IMG/VR virus record: IMGVR_UViG_3300025446_000011
Coordinates: 1-52,069 of that record
Source of the DNA: a virus
Strand: one strand, 5' to 3'
DNA length: 52,069 bases
The translations under genes and the position numbers were made by a program. Under the pieces are notes generated by a model that saw only the letters and a program-made list of their open reading frames with translations, searched no databases and was not told the DNA's origin. Positions 18,983 to 46,225 of this stretch are shown here, in pieces; the stretch's first letter is position 1; each line of letters opens with the position of its first letter.

Positions 18983-19020
18983 AGTATACACCGTCCTACA
19001 CGGAGCAGGCAGGGGATTCT
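18983..19020 (-). promoter_or_regulatory. Minus-strand bipartite promoter
   Basis: On the minus strand AGAATCCC is followed by 22 bases and TGTATACTATA. It is one of eight copies in the window, all upstream of minus-strand genes. With the TSS placed 6-7 bases after TATACT, AGAATCCC sits near -44 to -37. This copy drives the 18975 gene and overlaps the 3' end of the gene before it. Confidence 0.7.
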
Positions 19021-19169
19021 GCCCGGCTGTAGTAGTTCTTCACCAGGCTCCTCATCGTCTCGTCCACCGACATGTGCCAGGAGAGGTACCCGTCCTGCCC
19101 CTCCCGGAGCAGCGCCACGAGGCGCTCGGCGTCCCTCAGCATCTCCTCCCTGCGGGCCTTCTCTGCCAT
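18996..19169 (-). CDS. Small helical protein
   Basis: A 57-residue charged helical protein (MAEKARREEMLRDAER...). GGAGGAAG precedes the ATG. Its start overlaps the stop of the 29-residue membrane peptide (TGATG), and its 3' end runs through the downstream promoter. No family recognised. Confidence 0.65.
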   Translation of the reverse strand: MAEKARREEMLRDAERLVALLREGQDGYLSWHMSVDETMRSLVKNYYSRAESPACSV

Positions 19170-19258
19170 CACTTCCTCCTCCCTGCCCCCCATATCACCA
19201 GGGCATTGGGCACCAGCATGGCCAGGAACAGGCCTATGACCGCTAGCCCTGCGCTCAC
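19169..19258 (-). CDS. 29-residue single-pass membrane microprotein
   Basis: GTG start after GGAGGGGCAG; the GTG overlaps the upstream stop (GTGA) and the TGA overlaps the next ATG, so it is tightly coupled on both sides. The sequence is almost entirely one hydrophobic helix (AGLAVIGLFLAMLVPNALVI) ending GRRK, giving a membrane helix with a basic inside tail. Function unknown. Confidence 0.6.
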   Translation of the reverse strand: MSAGLAVIGLFLAMLVPNALVIWGAGRRK

Positions 19259-19464
19259 CTGCCCCTCCTCGGGAAGTCCGCCTCGAAGTCCCGGTCGTTG
19301 AGGTCATGGTAAAGCTCCCATACCCGGCAGCCTACCTCCTTCTCCCATCCCAGGGCCTCCCGGTCCGTCTCCAGCCTGGGCTTCTCCAGCAGCCCCAGCA
19401 GGGCCCTGGCGTGCCCGAGCATGGACTCCCTGCGGGTCCCTGGGTGCAGTATCCTCTCGTCCAT
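19255..19464 (-). CDS. Small acidic/basic helical protein
   Basis: A 69-residue protein starting MDERILHPGTRRES with an excellent AGGAGGAGGT ribosome site. Helical and charged, with no motif. It lies between the sugar transferase and the membrane microprotein and is coupled to the latter by GTGA. Confidence 0.65.
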   Translation of the reverse strand: MDERILHPGTRRESMLGHARALLGLLEKPRLETDREALGWEKEVGCRVWELYHDLNDRDFEADFPRRGR

Positions 19465-19484
19465 ACCTCCTCCTAACCGGCAGG

Positions 19485-20075
19485 CTATACCCCCCTGCCC
19501 CTGAGCACATGGGAGACGGTGACCGCCAGCAGCAGCAGGTCGTAGGCAAGCCCCCTGCGGCGGCGGTAGCAGCGGTGCAGGCGCACCTCGTACCCCCTCC
19601 CCAGCGAGTTGACCCTCTCCCGCCCCACGAGCTGGGACAGCCCTGTGATGCCGGGGGGCATGTCCAGGCAGTCGGAGTAGCCGGGCACCGTCCTGGACAG
19701 GTGCTCGGCTATGCCGTACTCGTCCGGCCGTGGGCCGACCATGCTCATGTCGCCCACGAGGACGTTCCAGAGCTGCGGCAGCTCGTCCAGGTGGGTGCGC
19801 CGCAGCAGCCACCCCAGCGGGGTCACCCTGGGGTCGCCCCTCTCCACCAGGTCCAGCCTGCGGGCCGAGCCGTTGCGCATGGTCCGCAGCTTGTACATGG
19901 TGAAGGGCCTGCCGTGCCTGCCCATCCGCTTCTGCCTGAACAGGGCGGGCCCGGGGGAGGTCAGGCGCACGGCGGCGGCCAGGGCGGCAAGGAGCGGGGA
20001 CACGGCCGCCAGCAGCAGCACGGCCAGGGCCACGTCGAGCGCCCGCTTGGCATGGTAGTACCTGGCGTCCGCCAC
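19485..20075 (-). CDS. Polyprenyl-phosphate hexose-1-phosphate transferase (monotopic, Bac_transf family)
   Basis: A 196-residue, complete initiating glycosyltransferase of surface polysaccharide synthesis. It should transfer a sugar-1-phosphate from a nucleotide sugar to undecaprenyl phosphate at the inner membrane face. Family hallmarks appear in order: KRALDVALAVLLL plus a re-entrant hydrophobic helix (about 10-38), SPGPALFRQKRMGRHGRPF and YKLRTM (about 42-69), GDPRVTPLGWLLRR, HLDELPQLWNVLVGDMS, MVGPRPDE (about 82-120), and PGITGLSQLVGR. The GTG at 20075 follows GGGGGAGGG and lies after the upstream stop. It is unusual in a phage small-gene block and complements the glycan operon at 31-37 kb. 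Sugar specificity cannot be read. Confidence 0.85.
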   Translation of the reverse strand: MADARYYHAKRALDVALAVLLLAAVSPLLAALAAAVRLTSPGPALFRQKRMGRHGRPFTMYKLRTMRNGSARRLDLVERGDPRVTPLGWLLRRTHLDELPQLWNVLVGDMSMVGPRPDEYGIAEHLSRTVPGYSDCLDMPPGITGLSQLVGRERVNSLGRGYEVRLHRCYRRRRGLAYDLLLLAVTVSHVLRGRGV

Positions 20076-20086
20076 TATCCCTCCCC

Positions 20087-20353
20087 CTAGCGTGGGTGCG
20101 GCCCCCCTGCGCAGTAGCATATGGCCCTGCCGCTCGCCCTCGCCTTCCTCAGGCGCTCCTCCCTGCGGGCCTCGGCCGCAATCTGGTTCGCCCGGTTCCA
20201 CATCTGCGCCCAGGATATGCTGACCTCGTGCCTGCACCCCTTGGGGCGCAGCCTCAGCCCCCATGCCTCCACGTGGGCCACCATCAGGCGCTTCCCCACG
20301 AGGAGCGGCGTCTCCAGGCACAGCTTGGTCTTGCGCCTCAGTATGCTGGTCAT
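20087..20353 (-). CDS. Basic small protein of unknown function
   Basis: An 88-residue basic protein (MTSILRRKTKLCLETPLL...) with a Trp-containing middle and a CYC near the C-terminus. The ATG overlaps the upstream TGA (ATGA). It precedes the sugar transferase by 11 bases. No family recognised. Confidence 0.6.
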   Translation of the reverse strand: MTSILRRKTKLCLETPLLVGKRLMVAHVEAWGLRLRPKGCRHEVSISWAQMWNRANQIAAEARREERLRKARASGRAICYCAGGPHPR

Positions 20354-20514
20354 CGGTACCTTCCCCTCCTTGGCCCCTGCCCTGCCACGTGCCCTGCGAT
20401 AGCGCCCATGTTCCCTGCGATGCCCAGGATGGCGGCCACCGCTACGAGGAGCACTGCCGCTACCGCCGACAGGAGCGCCACCTCCAGCCAGTCTACCGCA
20501 TACCAGTTCACCAT
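20350..20514 (-). CDS. Small single-pass membrane protein
   Basis: A 54-residue protein with one long hydrophobic helix (about residues 11-40, ALLSAVAAVLLVAVAAILGI) and a basic C-terminal tail GPRRGRYR. It overlaps the next gene by ATGA. A role in membrane anchoring or host takeover is possible but not shown. Confidence 0.6.
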   Translation of the reverse strand: MVNWYAVDWLEVALLSAVAAVLLVAVAAILGIAGNMGAIAGHVAGQGPRRGRYR

Positions 20515-20525
20515 GGCTGCCCTTC

Positions 20526-20825
20526 CTACTCTATGGTCATCACCACGAGGCCCCTGTCCTCCAGCGACACGGTGACCACCGTGCCGGGCGGGAGGGGGCC
20601 TGCGCAGTGCCATACCGACACGTGGTAGCGCCCCTTGGGGAACTCCATGTCCCTCGTCCATGCCGTCCCCCCGCCGTCCGTGAGGCATGCCACGGGGGCA
20701 CGGCTCCTGAGCACCAGGACGGTTGCGTCCTGCGGCCCCTGGTGCTTCCACCACTCGACCTTCACGCCCGCCCCGCTGTCCTCCATGTGCCCCCAGGACA
20801 CGAGGCGGTTGCCGTTGCTAGGCAT
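20526..20825 (-). CDS. Small beta-rich protein of unknown function
   Basis: A 99-residue protein starting MPSNGNRLVSWGH, with Trp-rich and beta-type sequence and no cysteine cluster. Its start overlaps the upstream stop by eight bases, a sign of coupling. No family recognised. Confidence 0.55.
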   Translation of the reverse strand: MPSNGNRLVSWGHMEDSGAGVKVEWWKHQGPQDATVLVLRSRAPVACLTDGGGTAWTRDMEFPKGRYHVSVWHCAGPLPPGTVVTVSLEDRGLVVMTIE

Positions 20826-21204
20826 CCTTGCGGTCCCCCGGTGCCTCCCCTGGGAAGTATACCCCCAGGTCCCTGACCATCTGCACGATTGCCTCGCACA
20901 TGTCGATGTCGAACCACCCCTCGTCCGGCACGGGCCTGACGGAGTAGCTGCGCAGCTTGCCGGACTCCTTGAGGCGCTGGAGGCCTGCCGTGAACTCCTG
21001 GTAGTCGTCGTAGCTGAGCATGGCCCTGAAGGCCCGCTCCTCGTCCGGCACGGCGACCTTCGCCCTGGAGCCGAGCAGCATCCTTACCTCGAAGAGGCAG
21101 GTGTTGTCGGTCACCCTTATGGCCTCCAGGATAAGCTCGTCCATCCCCTGCCTCCCCCCCGTGAAGGGGAAGCCTGCCTTGTCGTCCCGCTCCCTCTTGT
21201 GCAT
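20818..21204 (-). CDS. Small alpha/beta protein of unknown function
   Basis: A 128-residue protein starting MHKRERDDKAGFPF after a purine-rich GGGGGGCAGGG site. It has alternating helix and strand character, with DNTCLFEVRMLLGSRAKVAVPDEE in the middle (given in part) and an acidic C-terminus. No motif recognised. Confidence 0.6.
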   Translation of the reverse strand: MHKRERDDKAGFPFTGGRQGMDELILEAIRVTDNTCLFEVRMLLGSRAKVAVPDEERAFRAMLSYDDYQEFTAGLQRLKESGKLRSYSVRPVPDEGWFDIDMCEAIVQMVRDLGVYFPGEAPGDRKDA

Positions 21205-21215
21205 CCCTGCCCCCC

Positions 21216-21542
21216 TCAGTACCAGTGCTCCGTCAGCTCGCTGACCAGCTTCCTTATCTCCCCGCCGATGACGGAGGCGTATGCGGGGGAGATTACCTCC
21301 CCCTCGGGGTAGTCCTGCCCGTTCATCAGCCTGTAGAGCCGCTTGATGATGCGGATGGTCGTGGCATCGACGTGCTCCTCCCACTCCGGCTCGAAGCCGT
21401 CGCTGGGCCTGCGCACGTCTATCCATCCCATGCCGTCGCCGATGGTGCCGGTCAGCATGTCCGTCTTCCTGCCTTCCTCCCTGGGCACGCCGCACCTTAC
21501 CGTTCCGCATGGTACACAGTTGAACTCGCTATGGGTTTTCAC
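21216..21542 (-). CDS. Acidic helical protein of unknown function
   Basis: A 108-residue protein. The GTG start at 21542 follows AAGGAG and lies inside the end of the nucleotidyltransferase gene. The N-terminus has FNCVPCGTVRCG, which could bind metal. The C-terminal half is helical (ATTIRIIKRLYRLMNG). No family recognised. Confidence 0.6.
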   Translation of the reverse strand: MKTHSEFNCVPCGTVRCGVPREEGRKTDMLTGTIGDGMGWIDVRRPSDGFEPEWEEHVDATTIRIIKRLYRLMNGQDYPEGEVISPAYASVIGGEIRKLVSELTEHWY

Positions 21543-22086
21543 TGGTCTCCTTCTCCGCCAGCCGGTATGCCCCCAGGTACCTGTCCCTTACCGACGCATC
21601 GACTCCGTATCCCCTCGGCAGCCGGTTCAGCTTTATCAGCTCTACCACGTCCGCAAGGTCCTTCTGCCTTCCCGAGGACAGCTTGGTGGATACGAGGTCT
21701 TCGAGGGTGAGCAGCAGGGGCCTTCCCGATACCTTCGTGGGCATAGGCAGGGAGAACTTCCCCCCCTTGGACACCGTGCTCCCCCCTTGCAGGAGGTCTA
21801 CCGGCACCCTGGTCTCCCTGTCCGTCACGGTCATCCCCGACCCCTGGTTCTTCCTGAACAGCCCGCTCTGCTGGAGACGCCAGATTGCCTCCGCAGGGTC
21901 CGGCACGATGATGTCCACGTCGATGGTCATCCTGGGGTACCCGTGCTCCTGCACGGCGAACCCGCCACAGACGTAGTGCGGTATGCCCCACCCTGCCAGG
22001 ACGCCCACGGCCTTCCTCAGGGTCCTGGTCAGGGCGGTCGTGCCCGTCGCCCTCCTCAGGAACTCCGCCTTGAGGTTCATCGGCAT
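21529..22086 (-). CDS. AbiEii-like nucleotidyltransferase
   Basis: A 185-residue protein with a nucleotidyltransferase core: YVCGGFAVQEHGYPRMTIDVDIIV (about residues 38-61, given in part). GGxA and the DxD in TIDVDI match the metal-binding residues of the NTP_transf/AbiEii fold. KLSSGRQKDLADVVEL (about 140-155) matches the region after the core in such proteins. AbiEii proteins act as toxins or abortive-infection effectors; here it may be a phage-borne defence or RNA-modifying enzyme. No obvious AbiEi antitoxin adjoins it. The start is chosen after GGGAGATGAC. Confidence 0.65.
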   Translation of the reverse strand: MPMNLKAEFLRRATGTTALTRTLRKAVGVLAGWGIPHYVCGGFAVQEHGYPRMTIDVDIIVPDPAEAIWRLQQSGLFRKNQGSGMTVTDRETRVPVDLLQGGSTVSKGGKFSLPMPTKVSGRPLLLTLEDLVSTKLSSGRQKDLADVVELIKLNRLPRGYGVDASVRDRYLGAYRLAEKETSENP

Positions 22087-22175: not shown

Positions 22176-22206
22176 CCCGTGGTAGGGGGCCTTCGGGCAC
22201 GCTCCC

Positions 22207-22866: not shown

Positions 22867-23222
22867 TGTTCCTCCCGGTAGATGTCGATGAAGGTGGGCT
22901 GCGAGGGGGCGTCGGTGCCGCCGCTCCAGCCCAGGGCGTTCGCCATGGCCACTATCCTGGGGAAGGATGCGGCATGCCGCCTGCCCCTGCCGTCTACCCT
23001 GTGCATCAGCGCCAGCGGCAGGGCACGGTGGTCCTTGAACACCATCCTGCCCGTCAGGGAGTTGTAGGCCACCCATCCTGGGAGCAGCCAGAAGCACTGG
23101 TGGGCGCAGACGCCGCTCCCGGGGACCATCTCACGGGCGCACCCGCACACGGCGCAGCAGGGGCGGCCTACGCCCCGCCGCCCGACCGCCCTTACCGTAT
23201 AGCGCTGCGACTGGCTCTTCAT
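22863..23222 (-). CDS. Cysteine-rich small protein of unknown function
   Basis: A 119-residue protein starting MKSQSQRYTVRAVG. An N-terminal cluster CCAVCGCAR...C...C (about 22-50) probably binds metal. The remainder is mixed alpha/beta with two Trp. It overlaps the upstream gene at ATGA-type spacing. No family recognised. Confidence 0.6.
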   Translation of the reverse strand: MKSQSQRYTVRAVGRRGVGRPCCAVCGCAREMVPGSGVCAHQCFWLLPGWVAYNSLTGRMVFKDHRALPLALMHRVDGRGRRHAASFPRIVAMANALGWSGGTDAPSQPTFIDIYREEQ

Positions 23223-23494
23223 CGGTCTCCCCTTGCCGTGCCCCTCTTCCTGCGGGGCCCCCTCTTCCTGTCCAGGCACTTGAGGAGGTCCTCCTCCTCC
23301 CATACCATGGACTCCTGGAAGCAGCCCAGGAACCTGACCTCGGCCCTCCCCTTGCCCTTGAAGGTGTCGCCAATGGCCCTCTGGATGTCGTCGAACTGCG
23401 GTATGCTTATCAGCCACTCCCCACGCACCCCGACCAGGAAGTCCTGGGATGCGTCCCCGTCCGTCAGCGTCACCTTGAATGCCCTTACTGCCAT
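23219..23494 (-). CDS. Small protein with a basic tail, promoter-proximal
   Basis: A 91-residue protein starting MAVRAFKVTLTDGDAS. It has a beta-rich N-terminal half and ends with a strongly basic RKRGPRRKRGTARGDR. The ribosome site GGGAGGGA lies six bases before the ATG, and the promoter at 23515-23552 is directly upstream. Possibly nucleic-acid binding; no family recognised. Confidence 0.65.
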   Translation of the reverse strand: MAVRAFKVTLTDGDASQDFLVGVRGEWLISIPQFDDIQRAIGDTFKGKGRAEVRFLGCFQESMVWEEEDLLKCLDRKRGPRRKRGTARGDR

Positions 23495-23514: not shown

Positions 23515-23552
23515 ACTATACACCAGGATACACAGGGCGCTGGCGGGATTCT
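23515..23552 (-). promoter_or_regulatory. Minus-strand bipartite promoter
   Basis: AGAATCCC-N22-TGTATAGT on the minus strand. It drives the gene starting at 23494. Its -10-like box contains the TAG stop of the preceding gene. Confidence 0.7.
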
Positions 23553-23737
23553 CTCCGTAGCTGCCTCCGCAGGTTCCTCCTGGCGCTGGCCACGGCGTCC
23601 GCCTTGAAGGGACCTTCCCCCCTGGCGGTATGGTACATGCCGCTGCGGTCGGACCTGGAGGCATAGGCATGCCACCACCCGCCCGCAAAGTAGGTGAGGC
23701 GCACCCTGTAGGCGCTTATGGAGGTCCTCTCCCTCAT
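23516..23737 (-). CDS. Small basic protein of unknown function
   Basis: A 73-residue protein (MRERTSISAYRVRLTYFAGG...) with aromatic residues in the first half (WWHAYASRSDRSG) and an Arg-rich C-terminal helix (ARRNLRRQLRRESRQR). Start overlaps the upstream stop. Its own stop codon is part of the next promoter. Confidence 0.6.
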   Translation of the reverse strand: MRERTSISAYRVRLTYFAGGWWHAYASRSDRSGMYHTARGEGPFKADAVASARRNLRRQLRRESRQRPVYPGV

Positions 23738-24108
23738 GCCGCTGCCTGTGCCGCCCCCTCTTCCTTCTTCCCGCTCCAGAGCTTGCTCCACTCCCGCTGG
23801 CGCTGCACCTCCTGGCGCAGCCCCCTGGCGGAGAAGTGCTCGATGCCCCGGTACTGCCATGCGTCCCCCAGCGGGATGTGTATCAGGACTGCCGGGCTGA
23901 GGCTGTACACCATGTAGATGGCGTGCCCGTCCGCCACGGGGAAGGTGATTGTCTCCCCCTTGCAGTCGCCGCTGCCGTGCTCCGTGCAGTACTGCCGGAG
24001 CTTTCCTATGTACTCCGCCTCGGTCCTCTGCCATGCCTTCCAGTCGAAGTGCTCGAAGTCCATCTCCGGGACGGGCAGTTCCCTGGGCGGTCCGTAAACC
24101 TTGGCCAT
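23734..24108 (-). CDS. Small protein of unknown function
   Basis: A 124-residue protein starting MAKVYGPPRELPVP after GGAGGAGGGAAG. A helical acidic N-terminus is followed by a beta region (TITFPVADGHAIYMVYSLS) and a charged helical tail. The 24149-24185 promoter lies 40 bases upstream. No family recognised. Confidence 0.65.
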   Translation of the reverse strand: MAKVYGPPRELPVPEMDFEHFDWKAWQRTEAEYIGKLRQYCTEHGSGDCKGETITFPVADGHAIYMVYSLSPAVLIHIPLGDAWQYRGIEHFSARGLRQEVQRQREWSKLWSGKKEEGAAQAAA

Positions 24109-24148: not shown

Positions 24149-24185
24149 AGTATACACCGTCCTACACGGGGCAGGCGGGGATTCT
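24149..24185 (-). promoter_or_regulatory. Minus-strand bipartite promoter
   Basis: AGAATCCC-N21-TGTATACTATG on the minus strand, nearly identical over 30 bases to the copy at 18983. The 40-base leader to the 24108 gene contains a full ribosome site. Confidence 0.7.
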
Positions 24186-25079: not shown

Positions 25080-25238
25080 CTACGCCTTGTTGCAGACGAC
25101 CGCCATGAACTTGCGCCAGTCCGCCAGGGTACGGGGGGACTTCCGGTAGACGTCCTCCGCTGCTGTGACCTTGCGGACGGCTTCCTTTTTGGCGGCGGCT
25201 AGCTTTGTGGCGGCTTCCTTTTTGGTCTGCTTTGCCAT
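25080..25238 (-). CDS. Small Lys/Ala-rich protein
   Basis: A 52-residue protein starting MAKQTKKEAATKLAAAKK, a histone-tail-like basic helix followed by ADWRKFMAVVCNKA. The promoter at 25261-25297 lies just upstream with GGTGGAGGG as ribosome site. Possibly DNA-binding by composition; no family. Confidence 0.6.
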   Translation of the reverse strand: MAKQTKKEAATKLAAAKKEAVRKVTAAEDVYRKSPRTLADWRKFMAVVCNKA

Positions 25239-25260: not shown

Positions 25261-25297
25261 ATAATACACCGGAAAGCCTCTTTCCGGGAGGGATTCT
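25261..25297 (-). promoter_or_regulatory. Minus-strand bipartite promoter with inverted repeat
   Basis: AGAATCCC-N21-TGTATTATATA. The spacer here forms CCGGAAAG-AGG-CTTTCCGG, a perfect inverted repeat absent from most other copies. It could be an operator for a repressor. Confidence 0.65.
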
Positions 25298-27365: not shown

Positions 27366-27702
27366 TCTTGTCCCCCTGCCACATCTCCTCCGTGTGCCCG
27401 CACTCCCTGCACTGCCAGGAGTCGCCCATCACGTCGTGGACCTCCTCCATCCTCTTGCCGCACCCTGGACAGACGCCAAAGCGGGCGTCCGCCTCCTTGA
27501 GTAGCTGCCGCAGGGCCTTACTGACCCTGTATACCCTTTCCTCGGGCTTCTTCTTCCTCCTGGGGGCCTGGAGGCGGGCCACCACCTCGACATAGACGTC
27601 CCCGCTGTCAATGCCCAGAGCCTTTGCCACCCCCCCGCCTACCAGGAGGTCCAGCTTCCCCTGGCGCAGGGGGACATATCCCTTGTAGCTGAACCGCTTC
27701 AC
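27358..27702 (-). CDS. Small protein with a C-terminal zinc ribbon
   Basis: A 114-residue protein. GTG start at 27702, overlapping the upstream stop (GTGA), after TGGAGGGGCA. The N-terminal beta region (KRFSYKGYVPLRQGKLDLL) precedes a basic linker and a CPGC...CREC zinc ribbon (about 80-105). No family recognised. Confidence 0.6.
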   Translation of the reverse strand: MKRFSYKGYVPLRQGKLDLLVGGGVAKALGIDSGDVYVEVVARLQAPRRKKKPEERVYRVSKALRQLLKEADARFGVCPGCGKRMEEVHDVMGDSWQCRECGHTEEMWQGDKSG

Positions 27703-28004
27703 TGCCCCTCCAGTGCCTTGATTTTCTCGGGGTCCGCCGCCCTGGCTATGGCTATGAGGTCGGCCAGGTTGACGTTCAGCAGGCCGGAGGCCCCCTTCAC
27801 GATAGTCAGGAAGAGGTTGTATCCCCCTACCATGTTGGGGGTCATGCTGGCGTCGCTCAAGCGGAGGTGGGGCACGCAGCCGTTGTCCAGGCCGTGCCCG
27901 TGGACGCACCCGAACACCCCCTGCTTGTCCGGGGTGCGCATGTCGGGCCAGCAGTCCTTGGTTATCTCCACCAGGGCCTCGTGAAGGTCGGCGAGCCTGC
28001 TCAT
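27699..28004 (-). CDS. First gene of the right-hand minus operon, unknown
   Basis: A 101-residue protein starting MSRLADLHEALVEITKD with GGAGGG upstream and the 28027 promoter just before it. It has two Cys and several His in the middle (FGCVHGHGLDNGCVPHLR) and a helical C-terminus. Divergent from the terminase gene. Confidence 0.65.
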   Translation of the reverse strand: MSRLADLHEALVEITKDCWPDMRTPDKQGVFGCVHGHGLDNGCVPHLRLSDASMTPNMVGGYNLFLTIVKGASGLLNVNLADLIAIARAADPEKIKALEGQ

Positions 28005-28026
28005 CGGGGTTGGTCCCTCCGCTATA

Positions 28027-28064
28027 AGAATACACCGGGCGGGCCTGCCTTCCCCTGGGATTCC
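28027..28064 (-). promoter_or_regulatory. Minus-strand bipartite promoter, divergent from terminase
   Basis: GGAATCCC-N22-TGTATTCTTATA on the minus strand, a close match to the family consensus. It lies 23 bases from the 28004 start and 28 bases from the terminase start on the other strand. Confidence 0.65.
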
Positions 28065-28091
28065 TCTATTGCTCTCTCATATAGGAGGGGT

Positions 28092-30116
28092 ATGCCCAGC
28101 GCAGGCAGGTTCAGGAGGGGAGAGGGCTTCATCAGCAAGTCGGTGGAGGAGAGGGGGATATCCGTCCCCCACGAGACCCTCAACGCCGTGGACTTCATAG
28201 AGTCCCACCGTGGCCTGAGCGTCAGGCTCTTCCCCGTCCAGCGCCTCATCATAAAGTGCGTGTTCGGCGTCCCGATGGATTACAAGGAGAAGAAGGTCCC
28301 CCTCTACGACGTCTTCCGGGAGCGCCTGCTCACCACGGTCACGGAGTCCGAGGCCCTGCATATCTTCCACGAGGAGGGGCGCTGCAACATAGGGGACTGG
28401 CGGGACATCCCCGAGAGGGGGTACAACGAGGCCTGCATCATCGCTGGCCGCAGGGGGGGCAAGTCCCAGCTAGTCAGCGCCATGGCGGCATACAAGCTCT
28501 ACCTCCTCCTCAACTTCCGCAGCCCCCAGGAGTACTTCGACCTCGTCCCGAACTCCCACATAGACTTCACCTTCCTGGCCCAGGACGAGGAGGGGTCGGA
28601 CCGCCTCTACGACAAGCTGCGTGAGGACGTCAACCGGGCCCCCTTCTTCGCCCCCTTCTTCAAGGCAGGCACCGGCACCTGGATGGGGTTCATCACCGAG
28701 TCCGACCGTGGCAAGAGGGATGTCACCCCCACCGTCAACGTGGACTCCCACCCCTGCACCACCCGCTCCGTGCGCAGCCCCAGCAGCCTTATGCTGGCCC
28801 TGGACGAGTTCGCCCACTTCCGGTCGGAGAAGGGTTCCACCTCGGACGAGGTCTACCAGGCGGCCACGCCCAGCACCCTCAACTTCCACCATGCCGAGCT
28901 GCTGAACGGCTCCTGGATAAGCCAGGAGCAGATGAAGCACCTCGACCCCCCGCAGTACAGGGAGTTCCAGGACTCGCTCATCGTCAGCATCAGCTCCCCC
29001 TGGACCAAGGTCGGCAAGATGTACGACCTCCACAGGCTGGCCCTGGACAAGGGGAAGGACTCCAGCATCTTCACCCTGAGGGTATCGACGGCGGAGATGA
29101 ACCCCACCGTCCTCCCCAAGATACTCCACGAGGAGCACGAGAAGAGTCCGATGACGTTCAGGGCGGAGTACGGGGGGCAGTTCCTCGACTCCTCCGAGAC
29201 CTACGTCACCGAGGCCACTATCCGGGCATGCACGGACGTCAGGTACACCGAGGGGCCCGACCCCAAGCCCATCCCCGAGACCGCCCGCCTCAACCTGACG
29301 GTCTTCGCCCCCTCCTGCATCGGCCGGCAGTACTTCTGGGGCCTGGACCTGGGCATGATGAGGAACGCCACGGCGGTCGCCATCGGGCACCTGGAGCACG
29401 TCGGGGGCAAGAACCCCCTGATGCTGGTGTACGACTACATCGACCGCATGATGGTCGGGGAGAGGTTCGAGGGGCCCGGGGTGGAGGCGGTGCCCGGCGC
29501 TACCAAGTACGTCGGCTACCGGGCGCTGCCCCTGGAGGACATCGTCCTCTGGCTGCGGGCGCTCAACCGGGTCATGCCCTGCTTCCGTGGGGCCACCGAC
29601 CAGCACGGCGGGCAGCAGCTCGTCCAGCTATTGGAGATAAACGAGATATACAATATCGAGCTGCTCAACCTCACTACCATTATAAACTCCCAGATGGCCT
29701 TCGCCCTCAAGGGGTACATGGACAACACCAGGTGCAGGTTCCCCTACGTCCCCAGGTTCATGCACGAGCTGAGGACGGTGGAGGCGGAGTACGTCGGCAA
29801 GTACCAGATTAGGGTCCAGGCACCCCCGGAGAAGGGGGCCACGGACGACATGTGCGACGCCGCCGAGGAGGTCGCCTACGTCGCCCAGAAGTGGCTGATG
29901 GACGAGGGGGGCCTGCACGTGGACCCCTCCGGGGCCAGCCTCGCCATCCAGGAGCAGATGCAGAAGCCGCCCGCCCCCCTCATGTCCCTGGACGGGGTAA
30001 GCATGACGGACATCAAGGTCATAGAGCGGATGCGCAGGCTACAGAGGGGGCTGATGATGTCCCCCGGCACGGTGGTGGTGGCCAACCCCTTCCACCGGAG
30101 GACGAGGCTGAGGTAA
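28092..30116 (+). CDS. Terminase large subunit
   Basis: A 674-residue DNA-packaging motor. The ATPase has Walker A in IIAGRRGGKSQ (about residues 117-127) and Walker B with catalytic glutamate in LMLALDEFAHF (about 233-243). A following SIVSISSPW segment resembles motif C/coupling. The RNase H-like nuclease has acidic residues in WGLDLG (about 413-418), the Asp of GATDQHGG (about 495) and the Asp pair in KGATDDMCDAAE (about 580). Start chosen from GGAGGGG one base before the ATG. No small subunit is recognised beside it, and it is 20 kb from the capsid genes. Confidence 0.93.
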   Translation: MPSAGRFRRGEGFISKSVEERGISVPHETLNAVDFIESHRGLSVRLFPVQRLIIKCVFGVPMDYKEKKVPLYDVFRERLLTTVTESEALHIFHEEGRCNIGDWRDIPERGYNEACIIAGRRGGKSQLVSAMAAYKLYLLLNFRSPQEYFDLVPNSHIDFTFLAQDEEGSDRLYDKLREDVNRAPFFAPFFKAGTGTWMGFITESDRGKRDVTPTVNVDSHPCTTRSVRSPSSLMLALDEFAHFRSEKGSTSDEVYQAATPSTLNFHHAELLNGSWISQEQMKHLDPPQYREFQDSLIVSISSPWTKVGKMYDLHRLALDKGKDSSIFTLRVSTAEMNPTVLPKILHEEHEKSPMTFRAEYGGQFLDSSETYVTEATIRACTDVRYTEGPDPKPIPETARLNLTVFAPSCIGRQYFWGLDLGMMRNATAVAIGHLEHVGGKNPLMLVYDYIDRMMVGERFEGPGVEAVPGATKYVGYRALPLEDIVLWLRALNRVMPCFRGATDQHGGQQLVQLLEINEIYNIELLNLTTIINSQMAFALKGYMDNTRCRFPYVPRFMHELRTVEAEYVGKYQIRVQAPPEKGATDDMCDAAEEVAYVAQKWLMDEGGLHVDPSGASLAIQEQMQKPPAPLMSLDGVSMTDIKVIERMRRLQRGLMMSPGTVVVANPFHRRTRLR

Positions 30117-30141
30117 ACCCCTAGCTACACGGCCCATATAT

Positions 30142-30157
30142 GAGGGAACCTACCCTC
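30142..30157 (+). promoter_or_regulatory. Leader hairpin before the ribosome site
   Basis: GAGGG-aaccta-CCCTC lies just before TAGGAGAAG and the ATG at 30172. CATATA occurs seven bases upstream of the GGG. Resembles the structures at 14505, 37335 and 5359. Confidence 0.4.
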
Positions 30158-30171
30158 TAGGAGAAGACTGG

Positions 30172-38391: not shown

Positions 38392-39123
38392 ATGGAGTCA
38401 ACACCCTACATGAACTCGGTGACCTCTGCCCGTGCCCTCCTCCTGGGGGAGGAAGAGGCGCTGGTAGGTGCCACCACCATAAGCCTGGAGACCCAGCAGG
38501 ACCTCCAGGAGGACGACGTCTTCACCTACATCCAGGAGAACTTCGTGTCCTTCATAAGGATGCTGAGGTACCTGTCCCCCGAGGACCAGGACATGCTCCT
38601 GTCCTACTACCTCCTGGGGAAGACCCAGACCACGCTCGCCTCCATATTCAGGAGCACCCAGACGGTCTGCTCCTTCCGCATCAGGATGGCGGTGCGGGTC
38701 ATCGGGGCCTTCCTGCTCTTCGGCGAGCCTACCGTGGAGGTGCTGGCCAGGGTGCTGGGCAGGGCCGGGCTGGAGGAATCGCTCAAGGGGGGCCTGTCCA
38801 GGGCGGTAATAGAGTATGCGAGGTGCCGCTCCTTCCAGGAGGTGGCCGACGTCCTGGGGCTGCACCGGCCGGACGTGCGCCGGGCGATGAGCCGGGCGGC
38901 ACGGGCGCTCATGGGTTCCAAGGACAGCCGGGAGGCCGCCCTGGCGGCATGGATACACTCCCTGGTGGACAAGTCCAACCCCGTGGGCCCCGGCTACAGC
39001 AAGCGGAAGATGCAGAAGGAGGGGCATATCTACCGCAAGGACCCCGACATCCTGGGGGAGTTCTCCGCCAGGATAGAGGACCCCGCCTTCGACTCCCTGT
39101 TCGTTTCGAGGGCAAACAGGTAA
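38392..39123 (+). CDS. Sigma-like / HTH transcription factor candidate
   Basis: A 243-residue protein. Residues about 62-105 (YLSPEDQDMLLSYYLLGKTQ, TTLASIFRSTQTVCSFRIRM) match the shape of sigma-70 region 4, with a helix-turn-helix. A second HTH-like segment lies near 140-165 (RSFQEVADVLGLHRPDVRRA). The N-terminal 60 residues are acidic. It could be a phage sigma factor recognising the promoters in this window, but no region 2 is evident. It starts after the AT-rich region. Confidence 0.55.
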   Translation: MESTPYMNSVTSARALLLGEEEALVGATTISLETQQDLQEDDVFTYIQENFVSFIRMLRYLSPEDQDMLLSYYLLGKTQTTLASIFRSTQTVCSFRIRMAVRVIGAFLLFGEPTVEVLARVLGRAGLEESLKGGLSRAVIEYARCRSFQEVADVLGLHRPDVRRAMSRAARALMGSKDSREAALAAWIHSLVDKSNPVGPGYSKRKMQKEGHIYRKDPDILGEFSARIEDPAFDSLFVSRANR

Positions 39124-39658: not shown

Positions 39659-40495
39659 ATGGGCCTCAGGCACGGCAGCCTCTTCAGCGGCATCGGGATG
39701 ATTGACTACGGCCTGGAGCTTGCGGGCTTCAGGACCGCATGGCAGGTAGAGATAGACCCCTACTGCCAGGCGGTGCTGCGCAAGCACTGGCCGGGGGTCC
39801 CTCTCTACGGGGACGTGAAGGAGTGCGGGAGTGGGAGAGAGCACGAGCTTGAGCGGGTTGACCTCGTCAGCGGGGGGTTCCCCTGCACAGACATCAGTAT
39901 CGCCGGTCACGGGCCGGGAATCGGCACCCCCGACAACCCGACGAAGAGAAGTGGCCTCTGGTACGAGTTCCACCGAATCGTGCGGGAGATGCGCCCTAGG
40001 TGGGCAGTCATTGAAAACGTGGCTAGACTCCTGCATACGGACGATGGTGCCGGGGTCATCTTTGACATGGAGAAGGAGGGATATGCGTGCTGGCCCTTCC
40101 TACTGGGAAGCCATGTCATCGGAGCGCCCCACGAGAGGCGGAGGGCTTGGATTGTCTGCCGTGACAACCACTCCCACGGCGACTGCGATACTGGTGCAGG
40201 AGTGGGACAGGGGCAGCTTCCCGATAACCTCCGGCGGGCGTTTGAGGAAGCGGTCGAAAAGGAACATCACTGGAAGTGCGAACTGGCCGCAGGAGATGAT
40301 GGCACGCATGGTCCTCCAGAGGAACCCGAGCCTGCTGCCTACAGCCGAGGCGTGCGAAGAGTTCATGATGATTCCCACTGGGTGGACCGACTTAGGTGCT
40401 GCGGGAACAGTGTCATATGGTTCTTCCCCGCAGTCATCGGAGCCTACATCGCCCAGGCCGGGGAAGGAGGGGAAGATGGAGACAGAGGAGACTAG
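39659..40495 (+). CDS. DNA cytosine-C5 methyltransferase 1
   Basis: A 278-residue C5 methyltransferase. Motif I is SLFSGIGMIDYGLELAGF (residues 6-23), motif IV GGFPCTDIS (about 70-78, catalytic Cys), motif VI WAVIENVARLL (about 117-127), motif VIII HERRRAWIV (about 155-163), and motif X WVDRLRCCGNSVIWFFPAV (about 241-259). The target-recognition segment between VIII and X is only about 75 residues. Codons become AT-richer from about 39840, where a second open frame begins. Likely leaderless. Recognition sequence unknown. Confidence 0.85.
   Translation: MGLRHGSLFSGIGMIDYGLELAGFRTAWQVEIDPYCQAVLRKHWPGVPLYGDVKECGSGREHELERVDLVSGGFPCTDISIAGHGPGIGTPDNPTKRSGLWYEFHRIVREMRPRWAVIENVARLLHTDDGAGVIFDMEKEGYACWPFLLGSHVIGAPHERRRAWIVCRDNHSHGDCDTGAGVGQGQLPDNLRRAFEEAVEKEHHWKCELAAGDDGTHGPPEEPEPAAYSRGVRRVHDDSHWVDRLRCCGNSVIWFFPAVIGAYIAQAGEGGEDGDRGD
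39831..40475 (+). other. Open +1 frame overlapping methyltransferase 1
   Basis: Open from an ATG at 39831 and continuous, without a stop, into the 40476 gene. The translation holds TPTATAI, SGGRLRK and MMIPTGWTDL, which resemble the LNPxxVEWLMGFPxGWTDL pattern I recall from proteins annotated next to phage C5 methyltransferases. Equally long +1 frames overlap the other two methyltransferases. It may be a dual-coded gene or a conserved shadow frame. Confidence 0.35.
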
Positions 40496-40821: not shown

Positions 40822-41703
40822 GTGAGAGTCTACTACAACGACAACGACAAGTTCTGCTGCGGGTGGGTGGAAAAGCTCATCGAGGCAGGGCTTGTCCCCC
40901 CTGGGGACATCGACGACAGGAGCATATGCGATATAGGGCCCGAAGAGGTCAGGAGGTACGACCAGTGCCACTTCTTCAACGGGATTGGGGGATGGCCCCT
41001 GGCCCTCCTCCAGGCAGGGTGGGGGGACAGGCCCGTATGGACAGGCTCGTGCCCGTGCCAGCCGTTCAGCTCGGCAGGGAGGAAGGAGGGGGTCAAGGAT
41101 GAAAGGCACCTCTGGCCAGCCTTCTTCGGCCTCATCCAGGAGTGCCGCCCTCCAGTCGTGCTTGGAGAGCAGGTTGCGACAGCGGTTGGAAGGGGCTGGC
41201 TCGACATTGTACTCGGAGACCTGGAGGCGGAAGGCTACGCCTGCGGGGCGACTGTACTTGGCGCACACAGCGTCGGCGGCCCCCACATCAGGCAGCGGAT
41301 ATACTGGTGGGGCGACAGGGATTTCAGGGTACCCTACCCCGCAGGCACGGGACTACAAGGGTCCGCAGGGGAGGGCCTACGAGACCAAGCGTGCGACCTG
41401 CTCGACGACGAGCAGGGTGGTCGGGAAGAAGAAGCAGCAGGCGCTCGACCTCCCGGCAGTGGCGCTGATGGTGGAGGGAGTGGGGCAGCGCTTCCCGGAG
41501 GCAAGGGTTTCTGGAAGGGCTGGGAATGGCTTCTGTTCCGTGACGGCACGAGGCGTCCAGTTGAACCCGGCGCTTTCCCGCTGGCTCATGGGGTTCCCCA
41601 GGGAGTGGGACGACTGCGTGGCTACGGTAACGCTCTCTGCGTCCCGACCGCCAAGGCGTTCATAGGGTCCTACATGGAGGCCGTCAGCCCAGCAGTTCCC
41701 TGA
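40822..41703 (+). CDS. DNA cytosine-C5 methyltransferase 2
   Basis: A 293-residue enzyme with a GTG start seven bases after the upstream stop. N-terminal YYNDNDKFCCGWVEKLIEAG (given in part) and FFNGIGGWPLALLQAGW (motif I, about 52-68) mark the phage/actinobacterial Dcm type. Motif IV is GSCPCQPFSSAGR (about 76-88), motif VI reads LGEQVAT, motif VIII GGPHIRQRIYWWGD (about 153-166), and motif X GRLRGYGNALCVP (about 269-281). EPGAFPLAHGVPQGVGRLR precedes motif X as in relatives. The middle target domain is low-complexity. Confidence 0.85.
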   Translation: MRVYYNDNDKFCCGWVEKLIEAGLVPPGDIDDRSICDIGPEEVRRYDQCHFFNGIGGWPLALLQAGWGDRPVWTGSCPCQPFSSAGRKEGVKDERHLWPAFFGLIQECRPPVVLGEQVATAVGRGWLDIVLGDLEAEGYACGATVLGAHSVGGPHIRQRIYWWGDRDFRVPYPAGTGLQGSAGEGLRDQACDLLDDEQGGREEEAAGARPPGSGADGGGSGAALPGGKGFWKGWEWLLFRDGTRRPVEPGAFPLAHGVPQGVGRLRGYGNALCVPTAKAFIGSYMEAVSPAVP

Positions 41704-42538
41704 ACTTGTCGGGCAGCCTGCCCGCCAGGCCCTCGTCGAAGTCCTGTAGGTACTCGGGGGGCACCCTGCCCCTTATCCGCCCCACGTCCTGCGGCTGGTC
41801 CCAGTAGCGGAACCCTGCGTCCATGAGCTGGTAGAACAGGTCCTTGCGGTGGCCCTTCATGCGGATTACGTCGGTGTCGTCCTGCCCGTAGTTCGGCCCG
41901 AACTCCTCCATCCCCAGGGCGACGAGGAGGCCCGGCATGTCCACCCCTGCCTCTGGGCATACCTTGATGTTCACCTCGTAGGAACCCCAGCTCTCCTCCG
42001 ACTTCCTGCTTATCACCCCGTCCCCCTTGGCCTGGGGTTCTTCCATGAAGCCCTCGTAGGTCTGTGGCATCTTGTAGTCCTGCGCTGTCTCTATCTCGGC
42101 CCTGGTCTTTTCCCAGTCCTTGGGGGTCTCCCAGACCCGCAGGTACAGGACCCCGTCCCTTGCCATCCAGCCGTACAGCCAGTCCAGCATGCCGGGCTTG
42201 AAGGCGACCTGGTTGTACGTCCTGCCGCCCAGGTACAGGGAGTACCGTGTCCGCTCTTTCTTGGGCCTGGGGTTCCTGTGCTCGGCGGCTCTCTCGGCGG
42301 CCCTCTCGGCCGCTTCCCTCCTGGCCTCGGCCTCCTCGGCTTCCTTCTCGGCCTTCTCGGCCGCTGCCTTCCTGGCCTCGGCCCAGTGCTCCGGGCTGAC
42401 GTAGGGTAGGCCCGATGCCTCTAGCTCCGCCCATGCCCTGCGCCGTGCCTCACGCTCGGCCCTCCTGGTCTCGAAGCCCTTCCAGAACTCCTCGCTCCGG
42501 GCTATAAGCTCGGAGAGTTCCGTGCCGCAGTTTTCCAT
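41684..42538 (-). CDS. Coiled-coil protein of unknown function
   Basis: A 284-residue protein starting MENCGTELSELIARSEEF after GGAGGGAGC. Residues 20-100 form an Ala/Glu/Arg coiled coil (EAEEAEARREAAERAAERAA); the C-terminal 170 residues are globular with RTYNQVAFKPGMLDWLYGWM. It ends 20 bases inside methyltransferase 2 on the opposite strand. No family recognised. Confidence 0.65.
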   Translation of the reverse strand: MENCGTELSELIARSEEFWKGFETRRAEREARRRAWAELEASGLPYVSPEHWAEARKAAAEKAEKEAEEAEARREAAERAAERAAEHRNPRPKKERTRYSLYLGGRTYNQVAFKPGMLDWLYGWMARDGVLYLRVWETPKDWEKTRAEIETAQDYKMPQTYEGFMEEPQAKGDGVISRKSEESWGSYEVNIKVCPEAGVDMPGLLVALGMEEFGPNYGQDDTDVIRMKGHRKDLFYQLMDAGFRYWDQPQDVGRIRGRVPPEYLQDFDEGLAGRLPDKFRELLG

Positions 42539-42555: not shown

Positions 42556-42593
42556 AGTATACACCGAGAAACACCAGGATACAGGGGGAAGTT
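42556..42593 (-). promoter_or_regulatory. Minus-strand bipartite promoter
   Basis: AACTTCCC-N22-TGTATACTATA, with the spacing conserved and the upstream half diverged. Drives the 42538 gene. Confidence 0.6.
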
Positions 42594-42604: not shown

Positions 42605-42951
42605 CTAGTAGTTCTTCCAGAGGCACTCCACCTCGTCGGTATTGCTGAGCTTGTTCCGCTTCGGCACCCTGAGGAACGGCTCCCCGAGCGCCTCCAGGTA
42701 GGTCCTGTGCCCGTACTCGCTCAGCAGCCAGCGGAACCTGGCGCTCTTGAGCATGCCAAGAGCGGGGCGGTGGCTATGTCGTTGACATGATACTCCTCGA
42801 ACTTCCACGGGGCGAGGGTACCCACGGCCCACAGGACGTTCCCCCGCCCTGCGAACGGCTCCGTGTAGGTCCTGGCACAGGGCATCTGGTCCACCAGCAC
42901 CCTGGCCATGCCCGTCTTGCTCCCCGCATAGGGGAGGTTCGGCAACCGCAT
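42605..42951 (-). pseudogene. Decayed Dam-type adenine methyltransferase
   Basis: The 5' part (42721-42951, 76 codons) carries the Dam-like N-terminus: LPYAGSKTGMARVLVDQMP and EPFAGRGNVLWAV (motif I), then HVNDIATAP. The frame then stops, but the -1 frame continues to 42605 with RFRWLLSEYGHRTYLEALGE and VECLWKNY, which resemble the C-terminal part of phage adenine methylases. The catalytic DPPY region is missing entirely. So an internal deletion plus a frame change has removed activity. Alternatively the pieces are two small genes. The promoter at 42971 is intact. Confidence 0.6.
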
Positions 42952-42970: not shown

Positions 42971-43008
42971 ATAATACATCGAGGTACATGCTCCGGCCAG
43001 GGTATCGT
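42971..43008 (-). promoter_or_regulatory. Minus-strand promoter, weaker match
   Basis: TGTATTATGC with the 22-base spacing to ACGATACC, which only partly matches AGAATCCC. Upstream of the decayed adenine methyltransferase. Confidence 0.45.
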
Positions 43009-43023
43009 CCCCAAGCCTGGATG

Positions 43024-43035
43024 GTATTAGCCAGC
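43024..43035 (+). promoter_or_regulatory. -10-like box for a leaderless gene (GTATTA-N6-ATG)
   Basis: GTATTA followed by GCCAGC and ATG: the third copy of this arrangement. Divergent from the minus-strand promoter at 42971. Confidence 0.55.
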
Positions 43036-44244
43036 ATGGGACTCGTCTACGGAAGTGTTTGCAGTGGTATAGAGGCAACCACGGTGGCATGGGAGAGTCT
43101 CGGGTGGAGGCCTGCCTGGTTCTCGGAAATAGACGAGTTCTGCTGCGAGGTCCTCAGGCAGAGGTACCGGGACAAGTACCCCGAGGCTGACAACCTCGGG
43201 GACATGGTAGGGATAACCGGGCACCCGAAGTTCCAGTCCACCCACGTGGACCTAATCGTCGCTGGTACGCCGTGCCCGGCGTTCTCCACAGGTGGCCTGC
43301 GGGGGGGATTCAAGGACGACAGGGGGAAACTTACACTTGAGTATGTCAAAATCCTTGGGGCAAAGAAGCCAGAGTGGTTCGTCTGGGAGAACGTCGATGG
43401 GGTCATCTCCATGCCCAACGTCCAAGAGGACGGTAGTGTGCCTGATGACAAAAGGTGGCTATTTGGCACCATCCTCGGGGAGATGGTTGAATGCGGGTAC
43501 GGGGTCGCCTACAGGGTTCTGGACCCACAGCATCTCGGCCTCCCCCAAAGCCGTCCCCGAGTCTTCGTGGTCGGCCATCTTGGCGACTGGGCCGGTCCCG
43601 AAAGAGTACTATTTAACGGATACCCATCTGATAACTACACTCCGGGAGGCGGCGATAAAGCGAGGCGCATACCTGCTCTTACTACCCAGACTGCGGGAAA
43701 TGCGAACGCAAGAGGCGTCGTCGTGGTTGAATGCACTGGCGAAGTGGACTGGGCAGACCCACCGTGCGGAGAAGACCGAAAGTGGGCGGTTCGTGCCCTC
43801 ACCCCGATGGAGGAAGAGAAAAGGCAGGGATTCCCCGGCGACTATACCGCCATTGACTGGCACGGAGGCCCAGCCCCCGACGCCCTGAGGTACAGAGCGA
43901 TAGGCAACTCCATGGCCATACCCGTCATGCGGTGGCTGGGGGAGCGCATACAGGAAGTAAACGACCAAATCAAGGGAGGCACGTTCATGGACCAGCATAA
44001 GGCAGACACGATAGACGGGGTACCGGTAGCGCCGCCGCAGCCCGAGTTCCAGCCCGAGATAGAGGCCAAGCCCAGGAAGCAGCATAGGACGCAGCAACGG
44101 GCATCCTTCCTGCCGCCTGTCCTCTCTCAAATGCTTGGCAGGATTCCCGCAAACGTCCAGATGGCCGAGAAACTACTCAGGGAGCTGGAGGAGCAGGCGG
44201 AACAGGTACGTTCCTTCATAGCAGCATTGAAGGCCCAGTCCTAG
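43036..44244 (+). CDS. DNA cytosine-C5 methyltransferase 3 with C-terminal tail
   Basis: A 402-residue protein. Motif I is GSVCSGIEATTVAWESLGW (residues 6-24), motif IV IVAGTPCPAFSTGG (about 74-87), motif VI WFVWENVDGVIS (about 113-124), motif VIII HLGLPQSRPRVFVVGHL (about 170-186), a target region, QGFPGDYTAID, and motif X YRAIGNSMAIPVMRWLGERI (about 284-303). From codon 318 a separate coiled-coil tail begins with its own SD (GGGAGG) and ATG at 43987, so it may also be made alone. GC3 drops between about 43290 and 43890, matching an overlapping open +1 frame. Confidence 0.87.
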   Translation: MGLVYGSVCSGIEATTVAWESLGWRPAWFSEIDEFCCEVLRQRYRDKYPEADNLGDMVGITGHPKFQSTHVDLIVAGTPCPAFSTGGLRGGFKDDRGKLTLEYVKILGAKKPEWFVWENVDGVISMPNVQEDGSVPDDKRWLFGTILGEMVECGYGVAYRVLDPQHLGLPQSRPRVFVVGHLGDWAGPERVLFNGYPSDNYTPGGGDKARRIPALTTQTAGNANARGVVVVECTGEVDWADPPCGEDRKWAVRALTPMEEEKRQGFPGDYTAIDWHGGPAPDALRYRAIGNSMAIPVMRWLGERIQEVNDQIKGGTFMDQHKADTIDGVPVAPPQPEFQPEIEAKPRKQHRTQQRASFLPPVLSQMLGRIPANVQMAEKLLRELEEQAEQVRSFIAALKAQS

Positions 44245-44272
44245 AATTTATCCCATCCTCTCCTGCTTGAGT

Positions 44273-44294
44273 ACCCTTCGGGTCGTTTTTTTTT
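44273..44294 (+). terminator. Intrinsic terminator after methyltransferase 3
   Basis: A short stem ACCC / GGGT around TTC, followed by CG and nine T residues. The longest U-tract in the window. Confidence 0.7.
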
Positions 44295-44369
44295 GTGGGA
44301 CACATCAGAATGGCGTATTGTAGTGGTGGCAGCCCTTGTACTGGCTGTACTATATTGATTGGAGGAACT

Positions 44370-45341
44370 GTGACAACCCCACCTAAAAGCAAGGAGACCA
44401 TGGACAGGTTCTACCACCACTTCCAGCCGGAGTGCGTGAGGCTCATCCAGCAGATGTCTGACGAGGAGATAGTCTCAGTAAAGCTGTCTGAGATAACGGA
44501 AGGGGAGGGGATGGACGTCAAGCGGAACCCCTTCTCTCCCGAGTCCGATGATTATTTCCGCTCTATCATTGAGAGTGGCAAGGAGAAGGACCTTCCGCCC
44601 GTCTTCCTGGAGCTTAGCGACGGCACCAAGAGGGACTTTGAGGGGAACCTCATCTTGGCGGGGTACACTATTGTGGACGGGCGTCATCGGGTGAGGGCAA
44701 AGCGCCTCCTTGACCCCGAAGGCTGCATCCGGGCCGTAATCTTCTACCCCCTGGCCCCCGTTGAGAGAATCATCCTCGGGGTATGGCCGAACTGGGGTGG
44801 ACCTCAGAAGATGACCGACGAAGACATTGAGATGAACGTCGTGGCCATGATGAAGCGCAAGTACGATGGCGGCCTTGCCTTGACGGCTGCCGAGGTTCGC
44901 AAGGCGTTCCCCTTTATCCCCTCTATCACCCTGAACAAAATCATACACACCGTAGACGACAGGGTGAGCGTCAAGGGCGTAATTGACGCCCGGCGTGCGA
45001 TACTCAAGGAGGAGATGAGGCGGGACCTGGCCATCAAGCACTTCGGGCTGTCCCCCGCTGACATTAAGGCCCTGGACGACCAGGACTTCCAGAAGACAAG
45101 GAACGCCAAGCGTGACAAGGACCGCATGGGACGCCTGGACGGACAGTTCAAGAGCATCAACACGACCCTGACCAACGCCGTGGAGGCCATGATTGAGGAC
45201 GTGCAGAACCACCGTCTGAGCGTGGCTTCCGCCTGCAAGCGTCTGGACAAGCTGGCTGTGAAGGCGGCTTCCCTGGCCAAGAGGTTTGAATCGTCAAAGG
45301 CCAAAATCAAGCGGGCCGAGAGCCTCTCCTTGGCTGTCTAG
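44370..45341 (+). CDS. ParB/Srx-like DNA-binding or nuclease protein
   Basis: A 323-residue protein from the GTG at 44370 (GGAGG four bases before); ATG 44400 with AAGGAGA is the alternative. Residues about 30-135 form a ParB/sulfiredoxin-like domain: ISVKLSEI-type strand, FEGNLILAGYTIVDGRHRVRAKRLLD (given in part), with the G-x-x-x-x-DGxHR core and VIFYPL strand. The C-terminal half is helical and HTH-like (LTAAEVRKAFPFIPSITLNK). ParB-like proteins often neighbour phage methyltransferases. Codon use is AT-richer than surroundings, suggesting separate ancestry. Could be a nuclease, partition factor or regulator. Confidence 0.7.
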   Translation: MTTPPKSKETMDRFYHHFQPECVRLIQQMSDEEIVSVKLSEITEGEGMDVKRNPFSPESDDYFRSIIESGKEKDLPPVFLELSDGTKRDFEGNLILAGYTIVDGRHRVRAKRLLDPEGCIRAVIFYPLAPVERIILGVWPNWGGPQKMTDEDIEMNVVAMMKRKYDGGLALTAAEVRKAFPFIPSITLNKIIHTVDDRVSVKGVIDARRAILKEEMRRDLAIKHFGLSPADIKALDDQDFQKTRNAKRDKDRMGRLDGQFKSINTTLTNAVEAMIEDVQNHRLSVASACKRLDKLAVKAASLAKRFESSKAKIKRAESLSLAV

Positions 45342-45660
45342 GCAGGTCATGCTCCCACAAAACGAACACCCTCCACCCCTGTCGGGTGTAATCGGCAAGG
45401 GTGGAGGAGTCCCTCTCCCTGTTGCGGGCAATCTTGGCCAGCCAGAACTTGGTGTTGGTCTTGGGGACGGTGAAATGTAAGGGGCAGCCGTGCCAAAAGC
45501 ATCCGTGGACGAACACGGCTACCCTCTTCGACTTGTTGAGCCAGTCAGGCCCTCTCCCCCTACTATGCCTCAGGCGGCAGCCTGCGGCGGCCTCCACAGC
45601 CTTTCGGGCAGAGACCTCCAGCTTGGAGACGGACCTGAACTGCCTCATGTCCAGGCTCAC
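45307..45660 (-). CDS. Vsr-like very-short-patch repair endonuclease
   Basis: A 117-residue protein matching Vsr, which nicks 5' of the T in T:G mismatches formed by deamination of 5-methylcytosine. Features are GRGPDWL (Asp like the catalytic Asp51), VAVFVHGCFWHGC (about 50-62, containing the active-site His and zinc-binding residues), TKFWLAKIARNRERD (about 72-86) and WRVFVLWEHDL (about 96-106). GTG start overlapping the upstream stop (GTGA). It overlaps the end of the ParB-like gene by 35 bases. Its presence fits three C5 methyltransferases nearby. Confidence 0.85.
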   Translation of the reverse strand: MSLDMRQFRSVSKLEVSARKAVEAAAGCRLRHSRGRGPDWLNKSKRVAVFVHGCFWHGCPLHFTVPKTNTKFWLAKIARNRERDSSTLADYTRQGWRVFVLWEHDLPRQPRRGSRPA

Positions 45661-46181
45661 GCCGGTACCTCGTCCTCCCCCGTAACCTTTGGCAGGGCGG
45701 CCATCACCCGCAGCCGCATGTAGCCTACGAAGTGCTCCTCGGCGTTCTCGTGCGGGGAGGGGGGGTCTACGGCGGCGTACATGCCCACGCTGTCCTCCGG
45801 CCCGTCCTCCACAGGCTCCCGGAGCAGCCCTATTACCCTCCTGGTGAGCAGGCGGACATCGTCTTCCGTCAGCCTGTACCCCAGGCGGGGGGCCTCGCTC
45901 CTCACGGCGGCGGATACGCCCATCGGGTAGCGGGCCAGGTACTCCCGCATGCTGCGGGGGGGCACGTAGGGGGCTGTCCTTCCCGTAGCGGGGCTGGTGT
46001 CCCTGGACCATCCCTGGATGTGCATCCCCCCCAGGAGGGCGAGGTCCTTCTCGGTCAGGGGTATGTCTGGGGGGCTGGGCGGGTCACGAAAGTAGGGGTC
46101 CGGGAGGTCGGGGCAGGGGGCTATCCCCATGCCCCTCAGGAACTCCGTGTCGGTCCTCTCCGACGGCCACTTCCATCCCAT
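45657..46181 (-). CDS. Unknown protein upstream of Vsr, leaderless start
   Basis: A 174-residue protein starting MGWKWPSERTDTEFLRG. Six bases separate TATAGT of the promoter from the ATG, so the mRNA is probably leaderless. Pro-rich N-terminus, then a helical region (MREYLARYPMGVSAAVRSEA). Coupled to vsr by GTGA. No family recognised. Confidence 0.65.
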   Translation of the reverse strand: MGWKWPSERTDTEFLRGMGIAPCPDLPDPYFRDPPSPPDIPLTEKDLALLGGMHIQGWSRDTSPATGRTAPYVPPRSMREYLARYPMGVSAAVRSEAPRLGYRLTEDDVRLLTRRVIGLLREPVEDGPEDSVGMYAAVDPPSPHENAEEHFVGYMRLRVMAALPKVTGEDEVPA

Positions 46182-46187
46182 GCCTTG

Positions 46188-46225
46188 ACTATACATCGAG
46201 AGACCAGGGAATCCCTGGGGATTTT
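46188..46225 (-). promoter_or_regulatory. Minus-strand bipartite promoter for the vsr operon
   Basis: AAAATCCC-N22-TGTATAGT with the exact 22-base spacing. The spacer includes GGGATTCCC, an inverted repeat. Divergent from the 46257 gene. Confidence 0.65.

Follow-up and report, generated by a model that had tools for sequence, protein, structure and literature searches.

The window analysed here, a stretch of 52,069 nucleotides of viral DNA, contains eight copies of a bipartite element composed of an upstream box, AGAATCCC in its consensus form, and a downstream half that includes TGTAT (Table 1). All eight copies reported in a first-pass annotation are present at the coordinates given there, and all of them are intergenic, on the minus strand and immediately 5' of the start of a minus-strand gene. 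The upstream box is exact in four copies only; it has one mismatch in two others (28027 and 46188) and is poor, with three mismatches, in the last two (42556 and 42971). The separation of 21 or 22 bases between the halves holds throughout, the box starting 29 or 30 bases 5' of TGTAT in 8/8 copies. The downstream half had been given as TGTATA, which is correct for five copies, the other three having TGTATT (25261, 28027 and 42971). The -10-like box had been placed after TGTATA; instead, it overlaps that hexamer (TG-TATACT), and TATWNT lies inside TGTATACT. The invariant part of the element is TGTAT plus a T three bases after it, i.e. TATWNT directly preceded by RTG.

Table 1. Positions of the bipartite elements and of the sigma-like protein gene in the window
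Feature	Coordinates	Strand	Upstream box	Downstream half	Gene or remark
Site 1	18983..19020	-	AGAATCCC, 19020-19013	TGTATACT, 18990-18983	
Site 2	23515..23552	-	AGAATCCC, 23552-23545	TGTATAGT, 23522-23515; inner GTGTATCC	gene 23219-23494
Site 3	24149..24185	-	AGAATCCC, 24185-24178	TGTATACT, 24156-24149	gene 23734-24108
Site 4	25261..25297	-	AGAATCCC, 25297-25290	TGTATTAT, 25268-25261	gene 25080-25238
Site 5	28027..28064	-	GGAATCCC, 28064-28057	TGTATTCT, 28034-28027	gene 27699-28004
Site 6	42556..42593	-	AACTTCCC (weak), 42593-42586	TGTATACT, 42563-42556	gene 41684-42538
Site 7	42971..43007	-	CGATACCC (weak), 43007-43000	TGTATTAT, 42978-42971	ATG at 42951 downstream
Site 8	46188..46225	-	AAAATCCC, 46225-46218	TGTATAGT, 46195-46188	gene 45657-46181, predicted leaderless
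'Sigma-like' 38392 protein	38410..39123	+			region-4-like helix-turn-helix protein (Pfam)

The gene served by site 5 is divergent from the terminase gene, and its homologue in the related contig G030 retains the motif. The ATG downstream of site 7 starts a 245-aa methylase-like gene in G001, a longer contig of the same virus described below; relative to that gene (G001 126167-126904), the window version (42605-42951) is internally deleted by about 390 bases. Genes for C5 cytosine methylases and a Vsr-type mismatch endonuclease are clustered in this part of the window (39659-40495, 43084-44244 and 45307-45660). The spacers of two sites contain perfect palindromes, CCGGAAAG-AGG-CTTTCCGG at site 4 (25269-25289) and CCAGGGATTCCCTGG at site 8 (46203-46217), which are possibly operators.

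The pair of boxes is not accounted for by base composition. With at most one mismatch, the box followed by TGTATWNT occurs six times in the window and not once in any of 60 dinucleotide shuffles, and the eight occurrences of TGTAT[AT]NT found by scanning both strands are precisely the eight sites. AGAATCCC alone, with up to one mismatch, is not enriched in the window (32 seen versus 40.7 expected); thus, the signal is the pair of boxes at a fixed spacing.

We then considered the position of the element relative to the genes. If TATWNT occupies positions -12 to -7, the box lies at about -44 to -37, with its centre near -40.5, and 23-24 bp separate its end from TATWNT. No canonical -35 sequence is found at the normal distance (16-19 bp) at the motif sites. 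A good -10 sequence, the lack of a -35 at 16-19 bp and an additional upstream box are together what is expected of an activator-dependent promoter of the sigma-70 type. The consensus AGAATCCC contains no inverted repeat, i.e. it has no dyad symmetry. A Shine-Dalgarno sequence usually starts about 6 nt after the last invariant T, and in the window and in related contigs the start codon is mostly 24-31 nt from the TG. Transcription starting 6-7 nt after the -10 would just include the Shine-Dalgarno sequence. We rejected an archaeal TATA-box reading because the Shine-Dalgarno sequence would precede the start of an archaeal transcript. At four sites, 18983 and 46188 in the window and two in the related contig G004, the ATG is only 14-15 bases from the TG and leaderless messages are predicted; at 18983, the predicted +1 is at or adjoins the ATG of a 56-aa gene ending at 18975.

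Three further contigs encode a terminase with 100% protein identity to that of the window, the longest being G001 (127,426 bp), which aligns with window positions 2001-42759 at 99.6-99.9%, a small gap excepted. It contains the six window sites of the matching region and, in addition, five full sites of its own on the plus strand (54117, 62071, 69601, 72212 and 81574). Thus, no plus-strand copy occurs within the window, as first noted, but the strand specificity proposed from it is not a general property: orientation tracks gene direction, and the bias in the window reflects the local gene order. At the corresponding sites G001 54117, G004 5970 and G006 71021, the promoter is followed by 70-87 bases without a Shine-Dalgarno sequence near the predicted start; these copies could give rise to a small RNA or to an extended leader.

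A search with the major head protein identified at least 152 related stretches, the most strongly related being metagenome contigs of up to 463 kb. The complete motif, box and -10, is also present in the related peat contigs G004, G005, G006, G010 and G027-G031 (the last five found by a pattern scan of viral sequences), whose G+C content is 0.52-0.65. When offsets of 26-35 were allowed, 40 of the 45 sites with at most one mismatch had an offset of 29 or 30. Unbiased counts of paired 4-mers ranked GAAT-24-TGTA and AATC-24-GTAT near the top for three groups of contigs (G001 with G004, G010, and G030 with G031). A motif search by expectation maximisation ended in A/G-rich leaders, and we did not use it. 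The motif is kept before homologous genes in otherwise diverged contigs (G001 81605 and G010 31323; G001 111261 and G030 46294). Our literature search for AGAATCCC yielded no relevant paper.

To determine which genes carry the motif, we examined 462 leaders in eight contigs, using our own gene calls based on codon usage; 40 of them have it. Structural genes, defined as homologues of the structural proteins in the deposited annotation of Tunturiibacter phage Tunturi_5, account for 0/40 motif leaders versus 71/422 others (Fisher p 0.002). Fixed spacing, location before gene starts, a Shine-Dalgarno sequence directly 3', the recurrence of the motif in relatives and its confinement to non-structural genes together support a promoter class whose use does not depend on a standard -35. 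The sites very likely form such a class, which very probably serves non-structural genes in a lineage related to Tunturi_5. The structural leaders, at 2110-2150, 14461-14530 and 30117-30171 in the window and in relatives, are devoid of the AGAATCCC box; many have a TTATTAGG- or TAGTAGG-like sequence directly 5' of the Shine-Dalgarno sequence and are possibly a separate late promoter class.

The closest isolate that we found is Tunturi_5 itself (PP885688), which has a related major head protein (68.6%) and a 38392-like protein (54%). It also has a bipartite promoter, in which ATAATC and GGTATTAG are a fixed distance apart; in 29 of 40 leaders, ATAATC lies 26 bases 5' of GGTATTA. In contrast with the window virus, it lacks AGAATCCC...TGTATACT and has a second bipartite class, CATCTTT-N16-GTAGGTTG, of which about 25 copies precede small genes. 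Its gp211 is an ECF-like sigma with no homologue found in the other contigs compared. The host of Tunturi_5 is an acidobacterium (PMC11924767); by analogy, an acidobacterial host for the window virus is only a lead. Other relatives without AGAATCCC likewise have a different fixed box 5' of a TAT-type -10, in which TATACT or TATTAG is kept. The box of G007 is an A-rich, AATCC-like stretch followed by CGTGGTATACTG, that of G016 is TGGACAAA-17-TATACT and that of G019 is TGTTCAAA. The G016 and G019 boxes lie at an ordinary -35 distance, whereas those of the window clade, G007 and Tunturi_5 are farther upstream.

The organization resembles two known phage systems. In the middle promoters of T4, the MotA box has its centre at -30 and lies 12 +/- 1 bp from the -10; as here, the -35 gives way to an asymmetric phage box, the -10 is stringent and often preceded by TG, and the promoters serve a class of phage genes (PMC2988021). 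Here, however, the box is near -40.5 and 23-24 bp from the -10, its sequence is unrelated and the MotA spacing is not found. The Pm promoter of Mu also has a -10 hexamer without a -35 and an upstream element at a similar position, the Mor element centred near -43 (-43.5), but the target of Mor is a 16-bp dyad containing 5-bp inverted repeats (PMC4390567), whereas AGAATCCC is not a dyad, and many promoters are involved here as opposed to one in Mu. The class thus works like the MotA and Mor systems and is a member of neither, since their defining features are absent. Giant phages of the AR9 type, which have their own RNA polymerase, are similar in being jumbo phages with their own promoter grammar (PMC5312081, PMC9209446). 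They differ in that 13 contigs of the window phage family gave no match to an RNA polymerase beta subunit, all control genomes being positive.

The first-pass annotation had suggested an activator or an alternative sigma factor instead of a standard -35, and the protein encoded near 38392 as the candidate. A promoter class without a standard -35 is well supported, with an activator and a sigma as candidate readers. The candidate itself fared poorly. Only Sigma70 region 4 was identified by Pfam in the 38392 protein (2e-6), and region 2 was detected neither in it nor in the window contig, nor in the motif carriers. It belongs to the core gene set of these phages, with 58-81% identity in most long relatives, and is not confined to motif carriers. 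G016, Tunturi_5 and others without the AGAATCCC box have both of its helix-turn-helix motifs in nearly the same form, and we rejected the protein as the specific box reader because these motifs barely vary across box types. In G030, the corresponding gene (about 27654-29420, minus strand) has an in-frame intein-like insert of about 1 kb between GK and TQTT, which ends with HN before Thr and whose first residue is not Cys. A second, divergent sigma-like family is typified by gp3 of Tunturi_5, annotated as an RNA polymerase sigma factor. It is present in the motif carriers G010 and G030, and also in G007, Tunturi_5 and G016. For the window virus, which is known from incomplete contigs, a search for a gp3-like gene returned only the G010 copy; a copy of its own, if there is one, would be in the unsequenced parts. 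Models of the gp3-like and 38392 proteins made with AlphaFold had mean pLDDT values of 41 and 45, respectively, and were unusable.

The spacing is best explained by an activator bound near -40 and acting together with a sigma-70-type -10; a phage sigma comes next and a host factor fits less well. We would give an about even chance to host RNA polymerase working with a phage-encoded factor at this box. The host polymerase with a primary-type sigma would read the -10, and a putative phage-encoded DNA-binding activator would occupy AGAATCCC, stand in for the missing -35 contact and recruit the polymerase, in the manner of MotA in T4 and of Mor in Mu. Between phage clades, the box and its reader would have changed together, the -10 staying similar. 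Against this model, many activators bind DNA as dimers but this box is asymmetric, and a phylogenetic profile of genes found only in AATC-box phages, based on incomplete contigs, yielded structural and glycosyltransferase genes instead of a DNA-binding candidate. As the contigs are fragments, the gene for a sigma or an activator may be missing from them, and the gp3-like protein of G010 and G030 could be the reader.

The latter would be so if a phage-encoded sigma, gp3-like or split between the gp3-like and 38392-like proteins, read both boxes. We regard this as possible, if somewhat doubtful: gp3 homologues occur in five of the phages compared, the G010 copy has a weak PHROG sigma match (phrog_1740, 5.5e-4) and the 38392 family is a core gene, but 23-24 bp between box and TATWNT is too far for the usual geometry of regions 2 and 4 (16-19 bp), both proteins are present in G016, a relative without the AGAATCCC box, phages with different box types have much the same helix-turn-helix motifs in their 38392-like proteins, and Pfam detected no sigma domain in the gp3 family. 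That the phage mimics sites of a host alternative sigma or regulator appears improbable. The -10 is of the ordinary primary-sigma type, and host RNA polymerase is needed if no phage polymerase exists, but the boxes differ among closely related phages, and the consensus occurs only twice, without enrichment and in unrelated species, among 84,980 bacterial and archaeal species (one genome each), in a scan for the exact consensus at N20 spacing that covers the longer-spaced half of the sites. The spacer palindromes at 25261 and 46188 might hint at chance or at DNA-level repeats such as replication or packaging signals; given the empty shuffles, the strict orientation to genes, the placement of Shine-Dalgarno sequences and the conservation 5' of two homologous genes in divergent contigs, we consider it extremely unlikely that the sites are not promoters.

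A broader and rather unlikely scenario is that the upstream box was replaced several times in this jumbo phage family (AGAATCCC, AATCC-type, ATAATC, TGGACAAA and TGTTCAAA) with the -10 much unchanged. Behind these changes would be a phage-encoded reader from a protein family not yet described, perhaps a sigma split into gp3-like and 38392-like parts that would tolerate 23-24 bp spacing.

The promoter class provides a regulon map, which separates co-regulated from other genes in widespread and almost uncharacterised very large phages of peatlands. The different boxes with a similar -10 among relatives form a natural series for finding the box-reading protein, and the cultured relative Tunturi_5 offers a system in which such a reader is testable.
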